Notes under the pieces: generated by a model
Database searches by the model: none
Seen by the model: the letters and a program-made list of their open reading frames with translations, nothing else
What the model was told of the DNA's origin: nothing
Position numbers and translations under genes: made by a program
DNA from: Thermococcus bergensis
GTDB taxonomy: Archaea; Methanobacteriota_B; Thermococci; Thermococcales; Thermococcaceae
Reading direction: 5' to 3'
Assembly: GCF_020386975.1 (NCBI RefSeq)
Contig: NZ_JABFNK010000005.1
Location: 372,001 to 436,000 of the forward strand
DNA: 64,000 nt
In this document: positions 41,217 to 45,821 of the stretch, one piece after another
How the letters are laid out: the number at the start of each line of letters is the position of its first letter
How positions within the stretch are numbered: the first letter of the stretch is position 1

Positions 41217-41643
41217 AAAGCTTAATTCCAAGGGAATAACCCTTGAAAAAATGCTCGATACTGCCCTGGAGCTCTACATCGGAGAAGAGAGAGAAAAGGT
41301 CAAAGAAAAACTCAAGGAAATCATGCTCCACTATCTAAACGATATAAATATCCAAGCACTTTTGACAGCTGCTCTGCTCTTGGAAGAGGACTTCAAAGTT
41401 GAAGGTGATCCGATAAACCTAGTTGCCGATGAGCTCATCGGGATTAACATAGCTGAGTATATTGGGGGCAAGATGGCTCTGTTCAACTTCTTTTACTACG
41501 ACACAAAAAAGCCCGGGATTTTAAAGGAGCTCCCTCCTTTCCTAGATGATGCCATAGGAGGATTCATTGCCGGATGCATGACAAAGCTCTTCGAGCTCAC
41601 TTCATCCGGGACTCCCAACGAAGGGGGAGGAATAACAATCTAA
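41209..41643 (+). CDS. cobZ: Alpha-ribazole phosphatase, CobZ type
   Basis: 144 residues. The ending DDAIGGFIAGCMTKLFEL matches the phosphatidylglycerophosphatase A-like fold used by CobZ, the archaeal replacement for CobC. CobZ removes the phosphate from alpha-ribazole phosphate or the cobamide phosphate in the last steps of assembly. It overlaps the previous gene by 8 bp and the convergent ABC permease by 4 bp. PgpA itself is the alternative, but context favours CobZ. Confidence 0.72.
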   Translation: MIEKLNSKGITLEKMLDTALELYIGEEREKVKEKLKEIMLHYLNDINIQALLTAALLLEEDFKVEGDPINLVADELIGINIAEYIGGKMALFNFFYYDTKKPGILKELPPFLDDAIGGFIAGCMTKLFELTSSGTPNEGGGITI

Positions 41644-42338
41644 TCTTCCCTGAACTCGATGGTAAGAATCAATACCAAGCACAAAACTAGCCAGAACACT
41701 AATGATGCCATAGACAAACCCCCATATTGCGGATGCTCATATGCTATCAGGTGGGAAGCACTGACGGTGGGTATCAGGAGGAGAACATAGCGTAGTTTCT
41801 CGGGTGCGAGAGTTATGGGGTAATAAACCGGAAGAAAAACCGTTAGTATGGTTGTTAAAACCGTTGACAGCCTCATAACCGTAAGGGGTTCCCTCATTTT
41901 GACACCGATGTACATTCCAATGGTCGTGCTCCATATCCACAGAGAAACCACACCGAAGGCTACATATCTTATGTGAGAAAGCCCAAACTTTGCGAGGAGA
42001 GTGAGGATGAGTATCGCCAAGTAAGGCGTAGCCGGCAAACTCATGCCTATCGATATTCCGAGCATCTTCTCTGCTGAATTCCCAGGTAAAGACATCATTA
42101 TATCGTAAAATTTTGAACGAACTTTCATCCCCACCAGCTCTATTGGAAGATCTGCCATCCCAACCCCAATGATGAAGCTGATGATGGCTCCTGCAATGGC
42201 AGATGAAAGAAATCTGCCCTCACTAATCACATAGACGATAAAAATAAACGAAAGTGGTTGTATGGCAAAACTTAAGATTGAGCTTTTGCTCTTCATTAAT
42301 GCGTTCCCATAATACTCAATTATTGCCCAGAGGTTCAT
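41640..42338 (-). CDS. ABC-2 type permease of the radical SAM operon
   Basis: 232 residues with six hydrophobic segments, the ABC-2 exporter pattern. No ligand motif. It overlaps the ATPase gene by 4 bp (ATGA), so the pair makes one exporter. With the radical SAM gene and the small peptide gene upstream, it would be the export step of a modified-peptide system. Confidence 0.82.
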   Translation of the reverse strand: MNLWAIIEYYGNALMKSKSSILSFAIQPLSFIFIVYVISEGRFLSSAIAGAIISFIIGVGMADLPIELVGMKVRSKFYDIMMSLPGNSAEKMLGISIGMSLPATPYLAILILTLLAKFGLSHIRYVAFGVVSLWIWSTTIGMYIGVKMREPLTVMRLSTVLTTILTVFLPVYYPITLAPEKLRYVLLLIPTVSASHLIAYEHPQYGGLSMASLVFWLVLCLVLILTIEFRED

Positions 42339-43216
42339 CTCAAATCCCCCACAAGGAATATATCTTCTATGGTCAGTTCCTCTCTTTTAAAAGGGATTCC
42401 AGTATCTTTTAGCTCCTCAATCACCTCTCTTTCCTCTGATTTTGACTTGGTATAGACGAAAGTGTTCTTCCCTGCCCTCCTTGTTGTATAGTCCTCCTTG
42501 GTAAACTCCCCAAAAACAACTATCTTCGAATGGAACTGTGATAGATACTGCCGTGCAATTTTCTCGGGTTTACCAAAAGCAACCACCCTTCCTTTTTTAA
42601 GGAGAAGCACGTTGTCGCATACGCTGGAAATTTCGTTCAAATAGTGGCTTGTTATTACTACGGTGGAGTTCTTGCTTTTTTCTCTCAATATTTCCCACAA
42701 CTTCAGGCGATTTTCAACGTCGAGCCCCACAGTAGGCTCATCCAGATAGTAGATTTTAGCATCAGCCGACAAAATCATGGCGAGCAGAGTTTTCCTCACC
42801 ATGCCACCCGAAAGCGTTGACATTATCTTATCGGCATAGTCAATGCCAAACTCCTCCACAGCCTTTCCAGCCCGAATCTTGGCATCTTTCCTTGAAAATC
42901 CACGCATCCTGAGGTAGTGGTAAATGTACTCGAAAGGCGTGAGGGTGTAAAAATGGGACTTTGCCTCTTGAGGCAGGAGCGCAAAGAGGTTTTTAATTTC
43001 GCTTTTGCGGGAATTAACCTCATGACCGTACAGGAGTATTCTGCCCTTGTCCGGTTTAAGCAGTAAACTGAGAATTCTCACTAAGGTTGTTTTTCCCGCA
43101 CCGTTCGGCCCAATAATCCCGAGAATGCCCCCTTCCTGCACTGAAAAAGTTAAGGAATCGAGGGCTTTGATTTCTCCATAGCTCTTGGTGAGATCTTCAA
43201 CTGCTATTGCTTCCAT
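42335..43216 (-). CDS. ABC transporter ATPase of the radical SAM operon
   Basis: 293 residues. Walker A GPNGAGKTT near residue 36, signature LSGGM near 133, Walker B IYYLDEPTVGLD near 150 and the switch HYLNE near 190. The ABC-2 exporter subclass (CcmA-like) has a C-terminal extension. The start at 43216 overlaps the end of the radical SAM gene by 13 bp, so the proteins are made in a coupled manner. It has no peptidase domain, so any leader peptide would have to be cut by another enzyme. Confidence 0.9.
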   Translation of the reverse strand: MEAIAVEDLTKSYGEIKALDSLTFSVQEGGILGIIGPNGAGKTTLVRILSLLLKPDKGRILLYGHEVNSRKSEIKNLFALLPQEAKSHFYTLTPFEYIYHYLRMRGFSRKDAKIRAGKAVEEFGIDYADKIMSTLSGGMVRKTLLAMILSADAKIYYLDEPTVGLDVENRLKLWEILREKSKNSTVVITSHYLNEISSVCDNVLLLKKGRVVAFGKPEKIARQYLSQFHSKIVVFGEFTKEDYTTRRAGKNTFVYTKSKSEEREVIEELKDTGIPFKREELTIEDIFLVGDLR

Positions 43217-44610
43217 TCTTCCCCCTCCAACTTGGAGGTGTACAATTGGTTTAATGGGGAGCCTGGAATATCTTTTGTGCAATACAGTTCTCGGGGTATG
43301 GCCTTGCAAAACGTGTTGCAATATCCTTTCTTATAAAGAACGCATTGTCTGCATTCAGGAGCAACCAAGTTGAATTTATCCTTTTCAGGATCATCAATGC
43401 CGATCCTGAAGTATTCTGCAAGGGGAGATGCCAATATGTCTTTTAAAGAGTTTTGAAAAATATTGCCTAATTTAAACTTTTGATCCCTAAGAAAGACGCA
43501 AGGATATACATCCCCATTTGTATGTATTTGTATTTGAAAATTAACTGCGCCGCATCTGGCAGTTGGTTTTGTAGGGGGCGGATTAAGGGGTGTCACACCC
43601 GCTAAAGACTTCAACACAGTTACATTTTTTGCTTGTTTTGATCCTTGAAGTATCAAGTGGTATGCCTCTACTAGTTCGTTAAGGGAGAGCCCTTCGGATT
43701 TTATGAATTTTCCTCTACCAATAGGGATTAATGCTCCATAAACCCAGCTATCCGCTCCTAATGAATCAACGAGTTTAATAATATCGGGCAATTCATGCAA
43801 GTTTCTTTTACCTATGGTAGTGCCAACAACGATCATTGTTCTATGATGGTTCTTATCTCTGGCAAGGTTTTTGATAGCCCAAATTACTTTATCATAAGTC
43901 CCATACCCCCGATAAAATTCGTGAGTGTCTCGTGTTGCTCCATCCAATGCTATCTGGATTTCATCAACATACTCCTTAACAATGGACAACAATTTTTGAT
44001 TCTTATACAATGGAGTTCCATTAGTGGCAACTATCACATAAAATCCACGATCTTGAGCATCTTTTAGTATTTTGTCAATCTCTGGATGAAGAAGGGGTTC
44101 TCCTCCAGTAACCCATAAAATTGGGATTCTAAGAGTTTCAAGTTCGTCAAACACATGCAAAACTTCATCAAAACTCATGTACAGATTTGTGTGAGGTCCA
44201 GAATTAGCATAACAGTATTTGCAAGCCAAATTACAGTAGGATGTAATCTCTACTGCTGCTAGATGAGGAGCAGAGTATGAGTATGGGTGTGCTTGGGGAT
44301 ATGGAGAAAGGAATTCTGTAGTAAATCCCAGCAATTTGCTTAGGCGTTCGTAGAGCATAGCCTCGGCATTTTCTCGAGTCATTCCAAAAGCATTTTGCAT
44401 CATTGAAACAATTTTTTCATAAGGTACATGTGACTTAGCAAGTTCAAGTAGTGCAATAGTTCCAAGGTCTGTGTAAACTTCAAAACCTTTTGTATCCTTT
44501 TTGCTACTAATCTTGTGAAGTACTAATCCCCGTCCTTCCTCTTTTCTCCAGTAGAAAACTCCTGAGTCAACAAGCCTCTGAAGCTTCAAATACAAATCTT
44601 CAGTGTTCAT
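43204..44610 (-). CDS. Radical SAM/SPASM peptide-modifying enzyme with PqqD-like N-terminus
   Basis: 468 residues in three parts. Residues 1-100 resemble a PqqD-type RiPP recognition element (DLGTIALLELAKSHVPYEKI followed by helices). Residues 112-330 are a radical SAM barrel with CNLACKYCYA binding the 4Fe-4S cluster and VTGGEPLLHPE. The C-terminus is a SPASM region with cysteines in CGAVNF, VYPCVF, CRQCVLYKKGYCNTFC and LYC. Enzymes with this build cross-link or otherwise modify ribosomal peptides, or modify cofactors. AGGAGGG precedes the start. It follows a 51-codon peptide gene and precedes an ABC exporter. Confidence 0.88.
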   Translation of the reverse strand: MNTEDLYLKLQRLVDSGVFYWRKEEGRGLVLHKISSKKDTKGFEVYTDLGTIALLELAKSHVPYEKIVSMMQNAFGMTRENAEAMLYERLSKLLGFTTEFLSPYPQAHPYSYSAPHLAAVEITSYCNLACKYCYANSGPHTNLYMSFDEVLHVFDELETLRIPILWVTGGEPLLHPEIDKILKDAQDRGFYVIVATNGTPLYKNQKLLSIVKEYVDEIQIALDGATRDTHEFYRGYGTYDKVIWAIKNLARDKNHHRTMIVVGTTIGKRNLHELPDIIKLVDSLGADSWVYGALIPIGRGKFIKSEGLSLNELVEAYHLILQGSKQAKNVTVLKSLAGVTPLNPPPTKPTARCGAVNFQIQIHTNGDVYPCVFLRDQKFKLGNIFQNSLKDILASPLAEYFRIGIDDPEKDKFNLVAPECRQCVLYKKGYCNTFCKAIPRELYCTKDIPGSPLNQLYTSKLEGEEWKQ

Positions 44611-44660
44611 TTTACTCCCTCCTTTGACTCATACACAAAAATTAAAAATACAATAGGGGA

Positions 44661-44816
44661 TCAAAAACCACTTATTGACCATGCCCTTGAGTTGCACTGT
44701 CTGCCTGCACACAATGGGGGGATTTGGGAGTAGTTGAATTCTGGCTTGGTCTCGACTATGTTTTTAACAAGTTCCAAAATTTCCGCTTCTTGCTTGGCGT
44801 CCGCCGCGCAAATCAC
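44661..44816 (-). CDS. Candidate RiPP precursor peptide (51 residues)
   Basis: Open frame from GTG at 44816 to TGA at 44661, 50 bp ahead of the radical SAM gene on the same strand. It begins VICAADAKQEAEILELVKNI, a helical leader-like part. It ends in a short tail with two cysteines, LCAGRQCNSRAWSISGF, which looks like a core peptide. A TTG at 44837 would add seven hydrophobic residues. A TATA-like element (AAATTTATAATT, minus strand, about 44839-44850) fits a nearly leaderless start at the GTG; there is no clear ribosome binding site. It could instead be a gene remnant cut by the MITE just upstream. Confidence 0.5.
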   Translation of the reverse strand: MICAADAKQEAEILELVKNIVETKPEFNYSQIPPLCAGRQCNSRAWSISGF

Positions 44817-44867
44817 CAGTAGTATATTTAAACACAAAAATTATAAATTTTACTTTTGATACTTCAA

Positions 44868-45063
44868 TATTGTCCAGGATAATCAGTAGGACGTTAGAGT
44901 TAGACTATCTTAAGTTAAGATTCCATAAAAAAGATGAAAAAAGATTAAGACTGAACCCACCTAGTAAACAATGATTTCAGCCTTTATATTCCCCTCAACT
45001 TTTTCTGATTTTCTCAAGTAGTATTAGTGATTTAAATCGCCCCTACTGCTTATCCTGGCAGTA
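44868..45063. mobile_element. IS6-derived MITE, about 196 bp
   Basis: Both ends carry inverted copies of the left end of the IS6-type element at 16749: the motif CAGGATAAKCAGTRGGRCG is on each side, facing inward. Read on the minus strand, the interior follows the IS6 left end as far as the palindromic segment around its transposase start (GCTGAAATCATTGTTTACT compared with ACTGAAACCATTATTTACT). No transposase remains. The 8-bp flanks do not match. It lies between the radical SAM operon and cobS. Confidence 0.75.
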
Positions 45064-45101
45064 TTCGTACATGGGGCAGACTTTTTAAGCTTTCTTGCAA
45101 T

Positions 45102-45116
45102 TGGATTAATTAGCCA
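45102..45116 (+). promoter_or_regulatory. Cobamide-cluster palindrome at the cobS-cobY promoter
   Basis: TGGATTAATTAGCCA matches the palindrome TGGAYAAWTTRTCCA at 13 of 15 positions and is itself nearly symmetric. A TATA-like CTTTTTAAGC (45081-45090) puts the predicted transcription start inside this site. Confidence 0.55.
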
Positions 45117-45125
45117 GGTGGTTGC

Positions 45126-45821
45126 ATGAGAAACATCATCCCGTTTATGACAAGAGTCCCAATAAGGGGAGACTTCGAAAAAGCTAGGAATGAAATATGG
45201 GCCTTTCCTCTGCTTGCTACCCTTACCTCCTCTCTGCCCACTTTGATTTTATACCTTGACCTTCCTATGAAAAACATCTTAGCAATTCTCTCGCTTTACT
45301 CCACAATAGGCCTACTCCACTTGGACGGGCTAGCCGATTGGGCCGATGGAATTATGGTTAAAGGAGACAGAGAAAGGAAAATTGAAGCCATGAAAGATCT
45401 GAACACGGGTATAGCTGGAATTTTTGCTGTTGTAATGGTACTTTTTGTTCAGATATACTCTCTAAACTATCTCCCATTTTATGCAATATTTCTAGCTGAG
45501 CTGAACTCAAAGTATGCAATGCTCCTTGCTTTAGCCACCAAAAAACCACTTGGATCAGGATTAGGATGGTATTTTATGGAAAAGATGAACAAAAGGCAAT
45601 TGGCTGTTGGCACCTTGTTATACTCGATCCTCATCTTCCCTATAGGATTTTATAACCCAAAGGCCATTTTTTCAGTTGTTGGACTTTTGGTTAGTGCATA
45701 CGTCATGAAGGTTAGTATAGACAATTTCGGAGGTTTAAATGGGGACTGCATTGGAGCAATAGCAGAGATAACAAGAGCCGGAACACTTTTACTTATGGCT
45801 TTTGTCTGGTGGTGTCTATGA
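45126..45821 (+). CDS. cobS: Cobalamin synthase (adenosylcobinamide-GDP ribazoletransferase)
   Basis: Membrane enzyme joining adenosylcobinamide-GDP to alpha-ribazole (phosphate). 231 residues, about six hydrophobic segments. [11 protein letters not shown] at the N-terminus and [17 protein letters not shown] near residue 60 (the Asp-rich active site) are diagnostic, as is [14 protein letters not shown] near the end. Its stop codon overlaps the cobY start (ATGA). Confidence 0.94.

Follow-up and report, generated by a model that had tools for sequence, protein, structure and literature searches.

Among described peptide-modifying systems, the sactipeptides (subtilosin/AlbA, SKF/SkfB and thurincin H/ThnB) pair a small precursor with a neighbouring radical SAM/SPASM enzyme that carries an N-terminal RRE, and add an ABC exporter, an arrangement resembled by the locus described here. 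CteB and SkfB, which are among the solved sequences closest to the enzyme of this locus, are thioether-forming peptide maturases. In the archaea, according to the main text of PMC12144867, radical SAM-modified RiPP clusters are predicted across the domain, and the survey itself characterises haloarchaeal lanthipeptides only; two haloarchaeal lanthipeptides were the only experimentally validated archaeal RiPPs before that work, and archaeal radical SAM clusters are described there as still unexplored.

The locus lies in a 64,000-nucleotide stretch of the Thermococcus bergensis genome (contig NZ_JABFNK010000005.1, positions 372,001 to 436,000), here called the window. A preliminary description of these letters had proposed that a short frame with two cysteines in its tail encodes a substrate of a radical SAM enzyme, sactipeptide-type or other. 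Our analysis bears this out: both cysteines are conserved and the same radical SAM neighbour is present in another genus. The frame very probably encodes the precursor of a RiPP and belongs to an archaeal cassette of four genes; the peptide would dock on an RRE-like domain, be cross-linked in its tail, lose its leader, and be exported or protected against. We favor this reading because the peptide recurs directly upstream of the same enzyme in the second genus (genome G030) and because the first 100 residues of the enzyme resemble an RRE in their predicted fold. The features of the cassette are as follows.

44661-44837, minus strand: precursor frame, TTG to stop (58 aa from the TTG start, 51 aa from the GTG start)
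44661..44807, minus strand: precursor gene starting at codon 4 (48 codons and a stop); indel-free match in G030 (E 3e-16), pN far below pS
43204..44610, minus strand: radical SAM/SPASM enzyme, predicted to modify the peptide, 468 aa; Pfam PF04055 and PF13186, CX3CX2C and seven SPASM cysteines
44320..44610, minus strand: RRE-like N-terminal domain, enzyme residues 1-97; AF2 pLDDT 81; best re-aligned chains 6jx3_B, 5sxy and 6m7y
42335..43216, minus strand: ABC transporter ATPase; PF00005, with Walker A, signature and Walker B present; 65% identical in the G030 cassette
41640..42338, minus strand: 232-aa membrane permease of ABC-2 type with several hydrophobic stretches; 59% identical in the G030 cassette

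The peptide frame ends 50 nt upstream of the start of the radical SAM gene, which in turn overlaps the start of the ABC ATPase gene; the permease gene, which has no Pfam match, comes next, and the cassette contains no protease gene. Plus-strand cobalamin genes, cobZ and cobS, flank the cassette, and four congeners (G002, G004, G009 and G011) have the cobZ-cobS site without it. The G030 cassette has these four genes in identical order beside an unrelated upstream neighbour gene, and the G030 peptide, MDRGPTTENEKYIVKLVRDLAESRMEFYQSQLPPLCAGRECNSSAWAIFGF, sits directly upstream of the radical SAM gene. The enzyme is carried by 4 of the 94 family genomes, three with near-identical cassettes and G030 as the fourth; the G030 enzyme is 76% identical to that of the window, while the best match in any other genome reaches at most 36%. 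Gene order and conservation thus compared indicate that the peptide travels with the enzyme, the pair being inherited together in both genera and at two different genomic sites. Other radical SAM matches (L016-L024, 30-36% identity) were set aside, as they have different neighbours and no comparable cassette. A genome-contig scan with narrow patterns, the sole probe of other phyla, yielded the near-identical LGET01000020.1, a Thermosipho radical SAM match at 22% and nothing else, and searches of plasmid, phage and viral sequences found no orthologue.

Comparison of the two genera confirms that the frame is real. A tblastn search with the window peptide matches the G030 cassette with 24 identities in 45 positions (E 3e-16), and the two frames align without gaps over 51 codons to the same end residue, free of stops and frameshifts in the relatives. 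Mismatches by codon position number 25/11/36 of 51. Synonymous sites are saturated between the two copies (pS 0.98) against a pN of 0.33 overall, falling to 0.16 in residues 31-51; the substitution pattern therefore marks the frame as protein-coding and subject to purifying selection and, judged by the same rates, the tail is the constrained part of the peptide, where this selection is strongest. The other five frames are each interrupted by stops in one or both species. The gene is short and without a family model, as would fit a non-coding RNA or a frame open by chance, but amino-acid conservation across genera at saturated synonymous sites, and an Rfam search of the locus in which no family came near threshold, leave that explanation a negligible probability. 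No longer parent gene with the peptide as its C-terminal end was found. Within the genus the peptide matches only G007 and G008, and these matches carry little evidence, since the loci are nearly identical to the window. Weak matches elsewhere in the Thermococcales (E 0.006-0.5) were rejected, two of them (L004 and L010) on inspection, being antisense to a CoA-binding-protein-like gene, and the remainder as chance on their scores alone.

From codon 4 the peptide reads (A/M)ADAKQEAEILELVKNIVETKPEFNYSQIPPLCAGRQCNSRAWSISGF, with a leader of approximately residues 1-31 followed by the conserved tail. The window and G030 peptides share the tail motif PPLCAGRxCNSxAWxIxGF, in which the individual conserved columns are poorly resolved, the family consisting of two divergent sequences. 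In this two-sequence alignment both tail cysteines are kept, and the C-terminus reads SISGF or AIFGF with an invariant final Phe. Neither Pfam nor NCBIfam has a model that matches the precursor, so that the gene is missed by both databases and was found by reading the sequence by eye.

The position at which translation begins required closer comparison of the sequence upstream, where the following signals are found.

44840..44847, minus strand: TATA-like TTTATAAT, a candidate promoter read from the sequence, approximately 26 nt upstream of the Shine-Dalgarno
44812..44817, minus strand: Shine-Dalgarno GGTGAT, 4 nt before codon 4, with identical spacing in G007, G008 and G030
44814..44816, minus strand: GTG, codon 1 of the 51-residue peptide, overlapping the Shine-Dalgarno; this strain may start here
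44806, minus strand: single-base difference between the window and G007 and G008, changing codon 4 from GTG to GCG

The near relatives G007 and G008 (= LGET01000020.1) read GGTGAT-TTGC-GTG, with the GTG at codon 4, while G030 reads GGTGGT-CGTC-ATG, the ATG again following the Shine-Dalgarno after 4 nt. Since this spacing agrees in all three genomes, codon 4 is most likely the conserved start. Shine-Dalgarno spacing is 4-5 nt in 12 of the 15 long window ORFs with a GGTGA motif. The GTG proposed in the preliminary description as the start is probably not ancestral, and the alternative raised there, a secreted or membrane peptide beginning at the earlier TTG, fares worse. The TTG frame (MCLNILLVICAADA) does give a hydrophobic N-terminus; however, nothing is conserved upstream of codon 1, G030 has neither matching sequence nor a start there, its ATG following the Shine-Dalgarno instead, and the TTG lies inside the TATA-like stretch, so that we consider a peptide of this kind very improbable.

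In the window the conserved start codon reads GCG, and the precursor is therefore possibly untranslated in this strain. The remaining starts are the GTG three codons upstream, which overlaps the Shine-Dalgarno, and the earlier TTG. Three options present themselves: translation from this GTG, on a nearly leaderless message; a silent copy; or an assembly error at the base in question. Over the 3.6-kb tract the window and G007 differ at just two positions, and over 6 kb the window and L025 likewise differ at two; the GCG is among them in both comparisons. This raises the alternative that the gene is decaying in the window strain, its start lost and its peptide no longer made, with the transporter kept, for example, as immunity. 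We regard this as a serious contender with a probability somewhat short of even: an in-frame GTG survives three codons upstream and the remaining frame is intact, and the GCG is possibly a base error of the window assembly, in which a contig-end copy of another locus has indels. Decay in one strain is compatible with the RiPP explanation for the family. The start-codon difference between near-identical cassettes also offers a natural comparison of a producer with a possible non-producer.

The near-identity to G007 spans one tract, in which the whole cassette lies.

41545..45184, no strand assigned: tract nearly identical to G007, whole cassette inside; 2 differences, with flanks differing by several percent

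The surrounding 10-kb alignment with G007 shows 95.4% identity and 467 differences; because only two differences fall in the tract, the cassette was probably exchanged recently between the window and G007 lineages. This putative exchange between two species (41545-45184) would also have taken approximately 100 bp of cobZ and the cobS start. Between the peptide and cobS (window 44874-45058) are two 17-nt inverted repeats, CCAGGATAATCAGTAGG and CCTACTGCTTATCCTGG, 151 nt apart. This pair, which accompanies the cassette and is unaligned in G002 and G004, was taken for a MITE in the preliminary description; it occurs as a single copy in the assembly, and the name reduces to an inverted repeat pair.

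The enzyme has exactly ten cysteines, comprising C126, C130 and C133 of the CX3CX2C motif and the seven of the SPASM domain, and all are kept in G030. An AF2 model of the full-length enzyme from its single sequence was unusable (pLDDT 36), and the N-terminal domain was used by itself: residues 1-100 folded alone gave a fairly confident model (pLDDT 81). After re-alignment of the Foldseek candidates, the top three chains, with middling Z scores, were 6jx3_B (Z 6.6), a lasso-peptide RRE whose structure includes its leader; 5sxy (PqqD, Z 5.5); and residues 135-222 of NisB (Z 4.3), which we take to be the NisB RRE. As all three are RRE chains, the predicted fold supports a resemblance of the N-terminal ~100 residues to an RRE. 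By Foldseek's own E-values no match to the domain reached significance (best E 0.43, with 6jx3_B at rank 7), sequence profiles detected no RRE in the enzyme N-terminus, and hhalign against the PqqD alignment gave a probability of 0.2 with a query profile of two sequences only.

From the conserved coding frame, its co-inheritance with the enzyme, the RRE-like predicted fold, the complete set of radical SAM and SPASM cysteines and the transporter pair, we infer the following model of docking, linkage, cleavage, export and biological role. The helical N-terminal half of the peptide would act as a leader and dock on the fused RRE-like domain with which the radical SAM/SPASM enzyme begins. This enzyme would then oxidatively cross-link the tail LCAGRxCNSxAWxIxGF, most likely by joining C36 and C41 (51-residue numbering) to downstream residues in NSxAWxIxGF to form a thioether hairpin. 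As the cassette encodes no protease of its own, the leader would be trimmed by a host protease, and the ABC ATPase/permease pair would either export the product or protect the cell from it.

A search with the PqqD domain identified a second unit of radical SAM, ABC ATPase and permease genes in G005, with relatives in G059 and in the window's genome (G000).

L096 (G005:C1 ~1772400-1775300), L097 (G000:C4), L098 (G000:C5 start) and L101 (G059:C69), no strand assigned: second cassette, RiPP-like, with a PqqD-domain radical SAM gene

Directly upstream of its enzyme is a conserved peptide of 37 aa, MEQTKPVYDMSLKVGGGI(V/I)EPYD(K/R)WCA(Q/L)CLINIPLPF. Alignment thus characterises the second cassette as distantly related and similar in layout, with its own conserved two-cysteine peptide, the transporter genes having been read in G005 and G000 only. 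Its enzyme is 25% identical to that of the window, which implies that the same layout exists at least twice in the Thermococcales, with different precursors. In the window's genome the second enzyme gene is split by a transposase-like insertion. The copies at G000:C4 78000-86000 and G000:C5 1-6000 are nearly identical and lie close to the ends of contigs; small indels in the C5 copy suggest a contig-end overlap and not a true duplication. Two further small PqqD-family ORFs lie approximately 5 kb apart (G000:C5:593588-593752 and 598757-598948; L061 and L064), and similar PqqD-family matches occur in 39 of the 61 Thermococcales genomes searched.

The locus provides a concrete precursor-enzyme pair from hyperthermophiles, of a size that can be reconstituted and with conserved candidate cross-link residues. 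A broader proposal, which we put forward as speculation with the odds well against it as a whole, is that the Thermococcales carry horizontally moving four-gene radical SAM RiPP cassettes, of which two or more have unrelated precursors, and that their cross-linked products, stable to heat, would serve competition or signalling among hyperthermophilic archaea; the cross-link chemistry would fall outside known families, and production could be dropped by loss of the precursor start codon with the transporter kept as immunity.

How the locus relates to each described class can be followed through its enzyme, its peptide and its neighbours. Mycofactocin (MftA/MftC) supplies the best-scoring enzyme model and shares a conserved aromatic C-terminus, and this resemblance underlies a further alternative, in which the product stays inside the cell as a cofactor or redox carrier, mycofactocin- or PQQ-like, and the enzyme acts on the C-terminal aromatic (IxGF) without forming cysteine thioethers. 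The mycofactocin maturase is indeed the best NCBIfam score of the window enzyme, and the invariant terminal Phe recalls the CGVY in which mycofactocin precursors end (PMC3023750). However, the score of 118 bits is far below the cut-off of 265 (TIGR03962); the peptide ends in SISGF or AIFGF and not CGVY; the RRE-like domain is fused, with no separate MftB; the other mycofactocin genes are absent from the cassette; and the dedicated ABC pair, together with the sporadic presence of the cassette, better fits an exported product. We therefore consider a cofactor improbable and retain the RiPP precursor reading. The main text of PMC12144867 names no Thermococcales or Pyrococcus among its archaeal clusters, and our literature search, which covered mainly open-access papers, found no Thermococcales example of a radical SAM RiPP. 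The ranthipeptides (SCIFF/CteB and PapB) have SPASM enzymes related in sequence, CteB being among the best solved matches, but the window peptide has two cysteines as opposed to six in SCIFF, and the enzyme scores 63.6 bits against 425 for the SCIFF maturase model and 76.4 against 340 for PapB. With the sactipeptides the peptide shares, besides the overall layout, cysteines early in the core with possible acceptors downstream; it differs in a precursor sequence unrelated to any model, in being archaeal and in a cassette without a protease, and the enzyme scores 97 bits against 850 for AlbA and 110 against 625 for StsB. What the locus has in common with radical SAM/SPASM RiPP systems in general is a conserved short gene beside the enzyme in independent contexts and an enzyme with both the CX3CX2C motif and the SPASM cysteines. 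On the strength of these alignments and model scores, we regard the peptide as a new family of precursors within a known class.
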